Position numbers and translations under genes: made by a program | Part shown: positions 17,581-21,770 of the stretch, piece by piece | Numbering within the stretch: position 1 is the first letter of the stretch | Layout: the number at the start of each line of letters is the position of its first letter | Source: Salinispora pacifica CNR114 | GTDB taxonomy: Bacteria; Actinomycetota; Actinomycetes; Mycobacteriales; Micromonosporaceae | Length of the DNA: 64,000 nt | NCBI RefSeq assembly: GCF_000514775.1 | Contig: NZ_AZWO01000011.1 | Span: 62,001-126,000 of the forward strand | Direction of reading: 5' to 3' | Notes under the pieces: generated by a model | What the model saw: the letters and a program-made list of their open reading frames with translations, nothing else | Told to the model about the DNA's origin: nothing | The model's database searches: none

Positions 17581-19566
17581 TTACTGCACGGTGAAGAACA
17601 GTCGTGGAGTGGACCAAGTCAGCTCCGGTCCCGAAGTCACGAGCAGGACGCGTTCCGCGCCGTCCACCACCGGGTCGACCGCCGGCCGGAAGGGGACGCC
17701 GCGCAGGTTCCCGTCGGTGTTCCCGTACACGATCTTGCCGTCCACCCAGGCCATGCCCCGCACCGTCGACCAGTCGACCCCGGTGGTGGGCAGCGTGAAC
17801 TCGGTGGCACCGAGGTAGTTCCCATCCGTCTCGAAGTACCGGTAGTGCAGGGCGTCGGAGTCGGCCCGGGTGTAGTGGAGGCGACCGCCGAGGAAGAAGG
17901 CGCCGGTCAGCTCCGCCGCGTCGAACCAGTCGTTGTAGCCGGACGACCTCCACGGGGCACCGACAACTCCCCCGGGGAACATCGAGATGTCGATCCGGCT
18001 GCCCGTCGGGGAACCGGCGACGGTGTGTGCCCAGTAGATCCGGTCACCCATTCCCCAGGTCGCCCCGGCGCCGGTGTAGTTCGGCTGGCTGACCGTGGTC
18101 GGTGCGCCGATGCCGGTGCCGTCGAACGGAATCCGGGCCAGCTCGCCCTCCCCGGTGCCCAGGTAGAGGTTGCCGCTGGTCGCGGTGGACGGGGTCTTCG
18201 GGATGATCGTCCGACCACCGGAGCGGGGGAACATCCCGAGCCGGCCATGGTATTCGCCCCCCACTCCGTCGGAGTTGTGCCCGAAGTAGAGCCCGTCGTC
18301 GCCCCGCCAGAGCACCGGCACGGTGGAGCCCCACGGAGTGGCGCCGGGGGGCAGCGCCGAGCCACCGCTGCGCCGGGGATTCCAGTTCACCGGCATTCCG
18401 GTGGCTGGGGTGACCGCAGCTAGCCCGAGCCGATCAATGGCACCGTCGCCGGCCCTGTCGCGGGAGTTCGCGTTGTTCAGCCAGCGGAAGTGCCCACCCA
18501 GATAGATGACGTTGTTGTCCACCTCGACCGAGGTGATGGTGTCGCTACCGGTGTAGTTCGCCCAGGTGGCGAGCTGATCGCCGCCACGGGCCGCGGTCTC
18601 GAAGCGCACCAGTGCGTCGCAGTACGCGGCGGGCCAACCTGATCCACCGTTGGTGCCGACGACGAACCAACTGCCGTCACCACCGAACCTCACATCCTGT
18701 ACGTAATGCGTGAAAACATCGGGGTGGTTGCAGGGCGGCGCGAACTTCTCGGTGCTCCAGTCAAGGACACTTGGCGGGCCCGAAAGGTCGACCAACACCA
18801 TCTGGTTCCGCGACAGGCCGTCAACCTCCGTGAAGTTGCCCCCGGCCACCAGGGTCTCCCCGTCCGAGGACACGTCGATGGTCCAGACATACGAACTGGT
18901 GCCGTGTCGCCCCCCGGTGGCGTTGACGGCGAAGGTCGGATCGATCTCCCCCGTACCGGCGTGCAGGCGGGCAAGCCCGGCGTGCGGAGCGCCGTTCACC
19001 CAGTTGAAGGCGCCCGCCAGGTAGAGCCAATCGCCGTGCAGCGCCATGTCCCGTACGACACCACCGTCGGAGCGGCCCACCCAGCTGGCGACGGTGGCGC
19101 CGGTACTCGGGTCGAGCGCCACCAGATTCTTCCGGGACACCCCGTTGGCGTTCCGGAACGCCCCACCAACGATCAACGTGTCGTTCGGACCGGCGATCAA
19201 GGTGTTCACCGCGCCGTCCAGCACCGGCAGGAAGGTCGTCGAGATCGCCCCGGTGGCCCTGTCGTAGCCGAACAGGTAGCGCCGGTTGGTCCACCCCGCG
19301 GTCGCGTCCGGTCGGATCTGCGTGAAGGTGCCCCCAACGTACACCGTCGAGCCGATCTGCGCGAAGGCACGGACCTCACCGTCACGGGCGTGCGGTGTCT
19401 CGTCAACCGGATCGCTCGACACCAGGATCTGCGTCTCGGGCACCGGCGGGACGGTCGCCGCGGCCGCGGTGGGTACGAGCAACGCGGCGACGACGGTTAC
19501 CGCGCAAACCACAGCCGTCCAAACAGGGCGATTCGAAATCTGCCAACGAAGCGAGAAGTCAGGCAC
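17581..19566 (-). CDS. Secreted DUF5122 beta-propeller protein
   Basis: A 661-residue exported protein. Residues 1-37 form a signal peptide (positive start, hydrophobic VVCAVTVVAALLVPTAAAA). The mature part has repeated propeller blades of the DUF5122/delta-60 type, for example VYVGGTFTQI, LIVGGAFRNANG, LYLAGAFNWVNG, LVAGGNFTEVDG and IYLGGHFRWLNN. No catalytic motif or membrane anchor is seen at the C-terminus. The GTG at 19566 has GGAGG 6 nt upstream. It is the first gene of the minus-strand polysaccharide block, and its leader can form two competing hairpins over the start. A glycan-binding or surface-adhesion role is plausible but unproven. Confidence 0.85.
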   Translation of the reverse strand: MPDFSLRWQISNRPVWTAVVCAVTVVAALLVPTAAAATVPPVPETQILVSSDPVDETPHARDGEVRAFAQIGSTVYVGGTFTQIRPDATAGWTNRRYLFGYDRATGAISTTFLPVLDGAVNTLIAGPNDTLIVGGAFRNANGVSRKNLVALDPSTGATVASWVGRSDGGVVRDMALHGDWLYLAGAFNWVNGAPHAGLARLHAGTGEIDPTFAVNATGGRHGTSSYVWTIDVSSDGETLVAGGNFTEVDGLSRNQMVLVDLSGPPSVLDWSTEKFAPPCNHPDVFTHYVQDVRFGGDGSWFVVGTNGGSGWPAAYCDALVRFETAARGGDQLATWANYTGSDTITSVEVDNNVIYLGGHFRWLNNANSRDRAGDGAIDRLGLAAVTPATGMPVNWNPRRSGGSALPPGATPWGSTVPVLWRGDDGLYFGHNSDGVGGEYHGRLGMFPRSGGRTIIPKTPSTATSGNLYLGTGEGELARIPFDGTGIGAPTTVSQPNYTGAGATWGMGDRIYWAHTVAGSPTGSRIDISMFPGGVVGAPWRSSGYNDWFDAAELTGAFFLGGRLHYTRADSDALHYRYFETDGNYLGATEFTLPTTGVDWSTVRGMAWVDGKIVYGNTDGNLRGVPFRPAVDPVVDGAERVLLVTSGPELTWSTPRLFFTVQ

Positions 19567-19610
19567 GCTACACCTCCACAGGGCAAGGACTCGCGTAGCG
19601 TGCCTTGCCC
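19561..19610 (-). promoter_or_regulatory. Mutually exclusive leader hairpins over the propeller-gene start
   Basis: On the minus-strand mRNA, stem A pairs GGGCAAGG (19610-19603) with CCTTGCCC (19588-19581) and leaves the ribosome-binding site free. Stem B pairs AGGCACGCTA (19605-19596) with TAGCGTGCCT (19570-19561), enclosing the GTG start codon in the stem and GGAGG in the loop. Both stems need bases 19603-19605, so only one can form. This is the layout of a translational on/off switch; any trigger is unknown. Confidence 0.5.
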
Positions 19611-19747
19611 CACCCGGTCAGCGATATCCACCGATTGGTTGGCAATTGCCCCGCCGCCGCAGCGGTCCGACCACGCCCGGCCTCCCACGCTCGGCGCACG
19701 GCACCGCCGGGTCGCCTCTGACCCGGGACGAGTCGCCGCGACGGGAG

Positions 19748-20575
19748 TCAGCCAGCCCGAGCCGCCGTGAGGGCGGCGGCCATCGCCGCCCGCGGCGCCG
19801 GCACCCCGGTGAACTGCTCAAACTGACCGACCGCCTGGGCCAGCAGCAAATCCAGACCAGAGCAGACCCGGCAGCCGGCGGTCTGCGCCGCGGACGCGAG
19901 CGGGGTCGGCCACGGGTCGTAGAGGGCGTCAAAGAGCACAGTGCTGGGCCGCCACGCCACCGCCGTGGCGAGCGGATCGGCGGCCCCGGCCGGCACGGTC
20001 GAGATCACCACGTCGGCGGAGCAGGCCGCGACCGCGTCGGCCCAGGGAGCCCCGGTCAGCGGCACGCCCACCGCCGCGGCGACCGGACGCAACTCGTCGA
20101 TCGCGGTCTTCCGCCGGGCCACCACGGTCACCGTCCGGGTCCGCAGCGCCGCCGCCGCGGCCACCGCCGCCCGGGCGGTACCACCGGCACCGAGCACCGT
20201 CAGCGTCGACTCCGGGGCAACCCCGGCCGCGGTCAGCACCTCCACCATGCCGGCGACATCGGTGTTGTCCGCGTACCAGGAGCCGTCCGGCCGACGTACC
20301 AGGGTGTTGGCCGCGCCGACAGCGGCCGCGACCGGCGACGCCGTCGCGGCCACCGCGAGCGCCGTCTCCTTGCCCGGCATGGTGACCGATAGCCCCGCCC
20401 ACTCCGGGCCCAGGCCGGCGACCAGAGCCGGCAGCTGCGCCTGGGCACACTCGAAGCGGGTGTAGGACCAGTCGTCCAGGCCCACCGCGGCGTAGCCGGC
20501 GTTGTGGATCACCGGGGAGAGGGAATGCGCGATCGGGGCGCCGACCACCGCCGCGCGCCTGCGCTCAGATGACAC
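19748..20575 (-). CDS. aroE: Shikimate dehydrogenase
   Basis: NADPH-dependent reduction of 3-dehydroshikimate to shikimate. The 275-residue protein has the substrate-binding AAVVGAPIAHSLSPVIHN motif at the N-terminus (conserved SLS), NTLVRR and DNTD in the catalytic part, and an NADP-binding LTVLGAGGTARAAV turn. The start is a GTG at 20575 that overlaps the end of mltG by 11 bp and has GGGAGG closely upstream. In many actinobacteria aroE is followed directly by aroC; here about 14.7 kb of other genes lie between the two. Confidence 0.94.
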   Translation of the reverse strand: MSSERRRAAVVGAPIAHSLSPVIHNAGYAAVGLDDWSYTRFECAQAQLPALVAGLGPEWAGLSVTMPGKETALAVAATASPVAAAVGAANTLVRRPDGSWYADNTDVAGMVEVLTAAGVAPESTLTVLGAGGTARAAVAAAAALRTRTVTVVARRKTAIDELRPVAAAVGVPLTGAPWADAVAACSADVVISTVPAGAADPLATAVAWRPSTVLFDALYDPWPTPLASAAQTAGCRVCSGLDLLLAQAVGQFEQFTGVPAPRAAMAAALTAARAG

Positions 20576-21770
20576 CCGCCTCCCTCGCCTTGGCCTCGTT
20601 GCGCAGCTGCTCCTCGTAGGTTTCCGCGAAGGCGGACTCCCCCTCCTTGTTGATCGCGACGAAGAAGAGCCACTTTCCCGGCGGCGGGTCCATAGCACCC
20701 TCCAACGCCAGCCGACCCGGGTTGTTGATCGGCGTGGGGATCAGGCCCCTGAGCTTGCGGCTGTACGGGCTGTCGGTGTCGAGCAGCTCATCCTGGGTCA
20801 TCTCGGCCGAGGTCTTGGTCTCCTGGCCGGTCAACTCCAGGTAGTAGTTGACCGTGACATCCATCTCCAGGCAGTTGCAGTCGAATTCGCCGTAGACCCG
20901 GTTGTAGGCGACCCGGGCGACCTTGCCGAGGTCCTCCGGAGTACCCGCCTCGGCTTGGGCGAGCGACGCGACGATCAGCGCCTCGTACGGCGCGATCTGG
21001 CGTTCGTTCTGCACCCGGTCGACGAACTCCAGCTCCTCGGCGACGGTGAGGAACCGCTCCACCATCAGCGCCAGAATCGACTCCGCCGTGGGATCCGGGG
21101 GAAGCTCGTAGGTGTCGGGGAAGAGGAAACCCTCGATCGACGGCTCGACCTTCCGGTCATCGGTCCGCTTGAACCACCACTCCGGGACACCGAGCGCGAG
21201 CGGATCCTTCGCCGCCGCCTCGAACTCCTCCGCCGGAATCTCGGTCTCCTCGGCGAGCAGCTTGTAGATGCTCTTCGCCGTCCGCCCCTCGGGCACAGTG
21301 AGCCCGTTCACGACCCGATTCTTCGGGTCCAGCATCGCGGCCACCGCGTACTCGCCACTCATCTGCTTACGCAACTCGTACCGGCCGGGCTGGATGTTCT
21401 TGCTCTGGCTGTTGTCCTCCGCCGCATTGACGAAAGCCTTGGTGCTCTTGACCACCCCGGCTTCGTAGAGGGTGACCGCGATCGCGGCGATCGGGGCGCC
21501 CTCCGGGATCTCGACCGTCACCGCCTCGGTCCCGGAACCGTCGTAGTCTGGCGTGCCGAGCAGGCCCTGGATCCGTTCGAAGCCGTAGTAGGCGCCACCA
21601 CCGAGGCCGCCGAGTAGAGTCAGGGTAAGCAGCAGGGCCAGCACGGTCTTGCCGCGCCCGCCGCCCGAGCCGCGCTGGCGTTCGCGCTGGCGCTTCCGCA
21701 CGTAGCCGCGCCGATGCCGGCCCTTCTCTCCCCGATCGGTATCAAAACCGGGGTCCAGTTCCTCGATCAT
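20565..21770 (-). CDS. mltG: Endolytic murein transglycosylase MltG
   Basis: Membrane-bound lytic transglycosylase thought to cleave nascent glycan strands and set peptidoglycan chain length. The 401-residue protein has a basic cytoplasmic N-terminus (1-41), one TM helix (about 42-63), a LysM-like region and the YceG catalytic domain. Motifs are SIEGFLFPDTYELPPD (211-226) and ASLAQAEAGTPEDLGKVARV; Glu274 there aligns with the conserved Glu of the family. INNPGRLALEGAMDPPP near the C-terminus is also typical. The ATG overlaps the ruvX stop (ATGA). A two-Cys cluster, CNC at about 298-300, is present; its role is unclear. Confidence 0.94.
   Translation of the reverse strand: MIEELDPGFDTDRGEKGRHRRGYVRKRQRERQRGSGGGRGKTVLALLLTLTLLGGLGGGAYYGFERIQGLLGTPDYDGSGTEAVTVEIPEGAPIAAIAVTLYEAGVVKSTKAFVNAAEDNSQSKNIQPGRYELRKQMSGEYAVAAMLDPKNRVVNGLTVPEGRTAKSIYKLLAEETEIPAEEFEAAAKDPLALGVPEWWFKRTDDRKVEPSIEGFLFPDTYELPPDPTAESILALMVERFLTVAEELEFVDRVQNERQIAPYEALIVASLAQAEAGTPEDLGKVARVAYNRVYGEFDCNCLEMDVTVNYYLELTGQETKTSAEMTQDELLDTDSPYSRKLRGLIPTPINNPGRLALEGAMDPPPGKWLFFVAINKEGESAFAETYEEQLRNEAKAREAGVI

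Follow-up and report, generated by a model that had tools for sequence, protein, structure and literature searches.

Hairpins that cover a translation start are known from the Tn10/IS10-type protection from external promoters, in which the hairpin forms only in read-through RNA, and from RNA thermometers and translational riboswitches, in which a stem covers the start codon and an alternative stem may compete with it. Activator-dependent promoters, on the other hand, carry an operator near -40. For one alternative sigma-factor family, the ECF41 promoter consensus is given as TGTCACA-n16-CGTC (PMC3426412). The leader described here precedes a gene on the minus strand of a 64,000-nt stretch of the Salinispora pacifica CNR114 genome (hereafter the window), and we compared it with the corresponding leaders of 150 propeller homologs among the matches listed (the best 110 and 40 more). 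As in Tn10/IS10, the left arm of its start-codon hairpin would lie upstream of the gene's own, here predicted, transcription start, and the hairpin would form only in read-through RNA; unlike Tn10/IS10, it precedes an actinomycete chromosomal gene, not a transposase gene, and any read-through is hypothetical. As in thermometers and riboswitches, the start codon is covered and an alternative stem is possible, but the nearest relatives do not share the 3' arm of that alternative, and Rfam offers no match: a search of 18500-20700 returned three hits with E values of 5 or less, none at the leader and none near the gathering score, and none reached the gathering score in seven relative loci. As in activator-dependent promoters, a 13-nt block lies at a near-fixed distance upstream of a -10-like core, although this core, GCTAC(G), departs from the standard -10. 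Finally, a TGTC like that of ECF41 promoters stands about 24-27 nt before the block in many leaders that are not of the Salinispora type, but in none of the eight Salinispora-type leaders (the window, L002-L006, and the next nearest by protein identity, L007 and L008); since the window leader has no TGTC at the corresponding place, an ECF41 promoter was rejected. Overall, two inverted repeats in the leader are real and the one over the start codon is non-random, a two-state switch between them is unsupported, and what is chiefly conserved is a promoter-like module.

The gene encodes a secreted DUF5122-type beta-propeller protein and starts with GTG (17581-19566, minus strand). Its nearest named relatives are Salinispora, with S. 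vitiensis at 93%, and 323 of the family's 354 genomes carry a homolog. Upstream and co-directional, across a gap of 181 nt, lies aroE (shikimate dehydrogenase; 19748-20698, minus strand), the candidate source of read-through transcripts, whose C-terminus precedes the propeller gene in all eight Salinispora-type leaders. The upstream gene was co-directional in every context read, which also included two Micromonospora and two sister-genus loci. In these four, the place of aroE directly 5' of the propeller gene is taken by a gene that we take to be glycoside-hydrolase-like (L163, 1042-2742; L169, 1072-2835; L267, 1078-2829, minus strand; L269, 1766-3505). No intrinsic terminator was called at 19400-20000 in the window, or in one further locus scanned among the relatives. 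Downstream of the propeller gene come a hexapeptide acetyltransferase, a protein weakly matching EpsG/EpsF and an O-antigen-ligase-like protein, and a scan of nine more ORFs returned one each of a sulfotransferase-like protein, a family-2 glycosyltransferase, chorismate synthase, dehydroquinate synthase and a sodium/hydrogen exchanger, with no match for the other four. The first-pass annotation had called the propeller gene the first of a polysaccharide block, a description that holds broadly, though not in full.

Both inverted repeats that this annotation had placed on the minus-strand leader are present. The start-codon stem (stem B) joins a left arm, AGGCACGCTAC (19595-19605, minus strand), which ends in the GCTAC core of the promoter-like module, to a right arm, GTAGCGTGCCT (19561-19571, minus strand), which lies in a conserved start region and includes the GTG. 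Its 11 perfect Watson-Crick pairs (19605-19595 with 19571-19561) extend to 13 with G19594-U19572 and C19593-G19573, so that the start codon is buried as proposed, in a stem longer than the 10 bp originally given. Stem A pairs GGGCAAGG (5' arm, 19603-19610, minus strand) with its inverted repeat CCTTGCCC (3' arm, 19581-19588, minus strand) over 8 positions (19610-19603 with 19588-19581), and its overlap with stem B at 19603-19605 is confirmed. The Shine-Dalgarno GGAGG, recognized by its sequence (19573-19577, minus strand), had been thought to be looped out; in the minimum-free-energy fold its GGA (19577-19575) instead pairs with UCC (19589-19587), and its last G, 19573, lies in the helix. Thermodynamic folding, one of the checks originally proposed, favors stem B: taken alone in one 58-nt frame, stem A is worth -13.0 kcal/mol and stem B (11 pairs) -19.2 kcal/mol, a difference of 6.2 kcal/mol between the two stems. 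For 19561-19612, the best fold reaches -26.6 kcal/mol, and 19540-19625 (86 nt) folds to -43.3 kcal/mol with a z-score of -3.28 (0 of 200 dinucleotide shuffles as good), which falls to only -1.44 in a slightly different frame.

Stem B exceeds chance across relatives. Among the 110 best leaders, 100 could be parsed; the unparsed ones, L094 and L102-L110, were kept out of all counts of 100 and examined apart. A perfect run of at least 8 bp between left arm and start region occurs in 69 of the 100 parsed leaders, which are related and thus not 69 independent cases, vs. 10 of 500 start-shuffled controls; 11 of the 25 clade representatives have one as well. Stem B is thus more than a chance pairing. 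The 3' arm of stem A is found in only one of the eight Salinispora-type leaders, that of the window.

A conserved block lies upstream of both stems. The block CCAATCGGYGGAT is almost invariant across the parsed leaders and reads CCAATCGGTGGAT in the window (19626-19638, minus strand), where its conservation and the module score mark it as a proposed activator or sigma-factor contact site. It stands at a near-fixed distance from the core GCTAC (19595-19599, minus strand), a proposed -10 region: counted from the second C of the block, the spacing is 38 nt in 85 of the 100 leaders, 37 nt in 14 and 39 nt in one, equivalent to 39, 38 and 40 nt from the first C. Between core and Shine-Dalgarno the distance is variable (20 to 29 nt), and that from Shine-Dalgarno to start is 11 nt in 91 of the 100. 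Within the window, the module scores 33.7 at the 19626-19638 site and the runner-up 14.0. In its own genome, the block occurs at 33 places with up to one mismatch vs. 5 for a reversed control, and a longer form matches at 35 places in 22 of 31 genomes of the genus; a wider regulon may share it. The left arm alone, again with up to one mismatch, matches at 24 places vs. 13 for its control, and the exact spaced module matches three times, as does the reversed control, which makes this a weak test of its uniqueness. No sigma-70-like -35/-10 site was found in 19400-20000, and GCTAC lacks the final T of the usual -10. Among the literature matches listed, no title announced a start-site study of Salinispora, and the Actinoplanes SE50/110 literature mentions transcription start sites.

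Diverged homologs separate this module from the stem. These comprise 23 of the 150 leaders (L105, L106, L109, L110 and L197-L215), come from the window's own genus (Micromonospora genus) and share about 53-56% protein identity. In 16 of the 23, a CCGGTCGGTTGAT-like block scores above the 95% control, with a GCTAC-like core 38 nt from its first C; of the rest, L110 has the core at 38 nt but scores below the control, L211-L215 have it at 37 nt by pattern, and L105 has none. In all 17 with the core at 38 nt, the start lies at +74 and pairing with the left arm amounts to only 3-6 bp. The spacing is offset by one from that of the window's group, in which 85 of 100 leaders have 39 nt from the first C. 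Two of the unparsed leaders are similar: L102, a leader of another genus, retains GCACGCTACGCG and pairs over 3 bp, and L094 keeps GCACGCTACGCG with, by eye, a different start region. The module scan of 50 further leaders gave 24 passes at the 95% control, 13 of them above the highest of 200 controls; the passes of L107, L215, L217 and L218 are probably chance or off-place, and the scan excluded a spacing of 37, so that L211-L215 were recovered by pattern only. In an Actinoplanes-type genus (g4), 7 of 18 leaders (L222-L226, L228 and L229) show a similar block with GCTGCG or GCTTCG at 38 nt, matches that score below the 95% control and were made by eye and spacing. An Actinoplanes-genus pattern matches 45 of 67 genomes, and by their coordinates the matches in G010, G012, G015, G016, G029 and G042 fall in propeller leaders. 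Since the module is kept in diverged homologs that lack the stem, the left arm seems to be retained for a reason other than pairing, which suggests, from sequence comparison, that the shared left arm is mainly conserved promoter-like sequence.

Predicted structure follows the left arm. Across the 25 clade representatives, RNA that includes it has a mean z of -1.64, vs. +0.20 (unstructured) for RNA from core+14 onward, and the leaders of ten diverged homologs average +1.31. The window shows the same contrast, with z +0.29 for 19540-19590 vs. -3.28 for 19540-19625. When 82-nt segments were compared, the leader-covering ones averaged -1.85 and -1.67 and others -0.7 to +0.6, except for the two that begin 100 and 60 nt before the block (-1.33 and -1.06) and one that overlaps the leader (-0.94).

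We consider it about an even bet (probability near 0.5) that the main role of this leader is that of a dedicated promoter whose left flank can pair with the start codon. The block (19638-19626) and the core (19599-19595), 38-40 nt apart, would position RNA polymerase, and treating GCTAC as the -10 predicts a transcription start near 19585 (zone 19582-19588, minus strand). Such a start would lie downstream of 19596, the very position that the first-pass annotation had named as fatal to its proposal. The main mRNA would carry an open leader of about 20 nt without the left arm of either stem, and hence no switch between A and B could operate in it. If this is correct, at least 100 genomes carry, before a cell-surface gene, a rigidly spaced promoter module with an unassigned regulator. 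It would also serve as a warning: in GC-rich genomes, a strong leader hairpin may coincide with promoter DNA and be missing from the mRNA.

Longer transcripts reading in from aroE would include both arms of stem B, and in these the hairpin may cover the GTG and block its translation. A more tentative extension, which we regard as unlikely, is that the promoter's left flank has been recruited as an antisense arm, such that translation is reserved for transcripts that start at the dedicated promoter. The co-directional upstream gene and the absence of a called terminator, in scans of two regions, make such a read-through filter possible; the GTG lies inside stem B, and the gene's own transcription start is a predicted one. 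The fully developed form of the filter might then be the stem of a sister genus (g24; seven leaders with four distinct arm pairs), which has 17-19 Watson-Crick pairs and one G-U over 20 positions. Five of its positions vary: one shows a two-sided A-U/G-C change, two show G-U exchanges, and the other two are adjacent and become paired in L097. This stem reaches well upstream of the core and its changes keep pairing, with G-U states on the sense strand among them, which counts against the promoter reading by suggesting that the left arm is transcribed there in at least some RNA; a transcript with the left arm could arise by read-through or from a start farther upstream. Were the filter real, an ordinary chromosomal gene would carry a protection device of the transposon kind. 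As to the start-codon stem originally described, it does recur in the genus and is longer, with pairing-keeping changes, in the sister genus, while the switch between competing stems built upon it is not borne out.

Alternatively, and in our view unlikely, the stems could be mutational by-products of little function, left by template switching during replication, which would perfect short inverted repeats and has been reported to create and maintain hairpins (PMC8794818). At 19581-19588, seven of the eight Salinispora-type leaders read TTCTCACC, and the window alone reads CCTTGCCC; the three clustered letters that distinguish the two all improve pairing with GGGCAAGG and make the 8-bp complement perfect, the kind of change expected from template switching. 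Similarly, the two adjacent changes in L097 complete the 20-position stem. Against such an origin, much of a diverse genus retains at least 8 bp of stem-B complementarity, in the 69 leaders and 11 clade representatives given above.

The first-pass annotation favored a translational switch, in which a leader transcribed from upstream of 19610 is closed at the start codon by stem B and freed by stem A, with a signal shifting the balance. We find this improbable, although both stems exist in the window, pairing resembling stem A recurs in some lineages such as L017, L031, L035, L043 and L049, and both stems stay paired across relatives. On an alignment of 86 distinct leaders, scored against 500 shuffles (which, as the tool warns, related sequences can beat without any structure) and against slid stems as a second control, stem B is 81.7% paired (shuffles 81.0%, reached by 6 of 500; slid stems at most 46.9%) and stem A 72.3% (shuffles 70.6%, reached by 1 of 500). 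The covariation score of stem A is 0.178 vs. 0.161 in shuffles (12 of 500 reach it), with no slid version above 48% paired or a score of 0.067, and that of stem B is reached by 49 of 500. These excesses are weak, however, and covariation, a further check originally called for, does not back the switch: pairs with two-sided changes are no more frequent than expected for stem B (4 vs. 2.9 in shuffles; 114 of 500) or stem A (7 vs. 6.5; 244 of 500), and an inner pair of stem B (alignment columns 52/88) is broken in 56 of the 86 leaders. RNAalifold predicted seven pairs on the aligned leaders, none of them from stem A or B. Swapping arms between leaders gave mean own-minus-cross energies of -0.31 for stem B (mean rank 0.53) and -0.81 for stem A (mean rank 0.42), an effect that is large in some clades only, led for stem B by the sister genus (-16.98), whose pairing-keeping changes favor a switch but include a single two-sided change among seven leaders.

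Nor do the two stems travel together, as a switch would have them do. The longest stem-B runs in Salinispora-type leaders are 11 bp in the window, 8 in L008, 7 in L002 and 4 in L007, and by eye L003-L006 have 5 to 7 pairs or an interrupted stem, so that several close relatives have a shorter or broken stem B. Among the eight clade representatives with a stem-A run of at least 9 (G-U allowed), five have a stem-B run of at most 5. Joint conservation of the two stems in orthologous leaders, which a switch would call for, is not seen: the 3' arm of stem A is absent from seven of the eight Salinispora-type leaders, and stem-B runs of 8 bp or more are kept in 69 of 100. With the greater stability of stem B, the absence of an Rfam match and a left arm that lies in a promoter-like module, these results weigh against two alternating states.

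A DNA operator, in which a dimeric regulator would bind both arms at the promoter core and the start codon, is likewise improbable: the arms are near-perfect inverted copies around the predicted transcription start, and the sense strand exceeds the antisense strand only slightly in structure (mean z -1.65 vs. -1.37; sense stronger in 18 of 25), but the distance between the arms follows the 20-29 nt from core to Shine-Dalgarno, so that half-sites would rotate against each other, and the states tolerated in the sister genus are G-U on the sense strand, which favors RNA over a DNA site there.

Several smaller features emerged from the same leaders. A small GGYG/CRCC hairpin beside the upstream block is among the pairs predicted by RNAalifold and is 90.7% paired; with one two-sided pair and a covariation score reached by 332 of 500 shuffles, it was set aside. 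An upstream ORF acting as attenuator, considered by eye in L018, was dropped because leader lengths vary between species. In L017, L031, L035, L043 and L049, a repeat of 9-15 pairs (G-U allowed) surrounds the GCTAC core, and the start-codon stem shrinks to 4-5 bp. Many of the L013-type leaders (19 distinct in the cluster) were seen by eye to enclose the GCTAC core in a short CGAGG...CCTCG hairpin.
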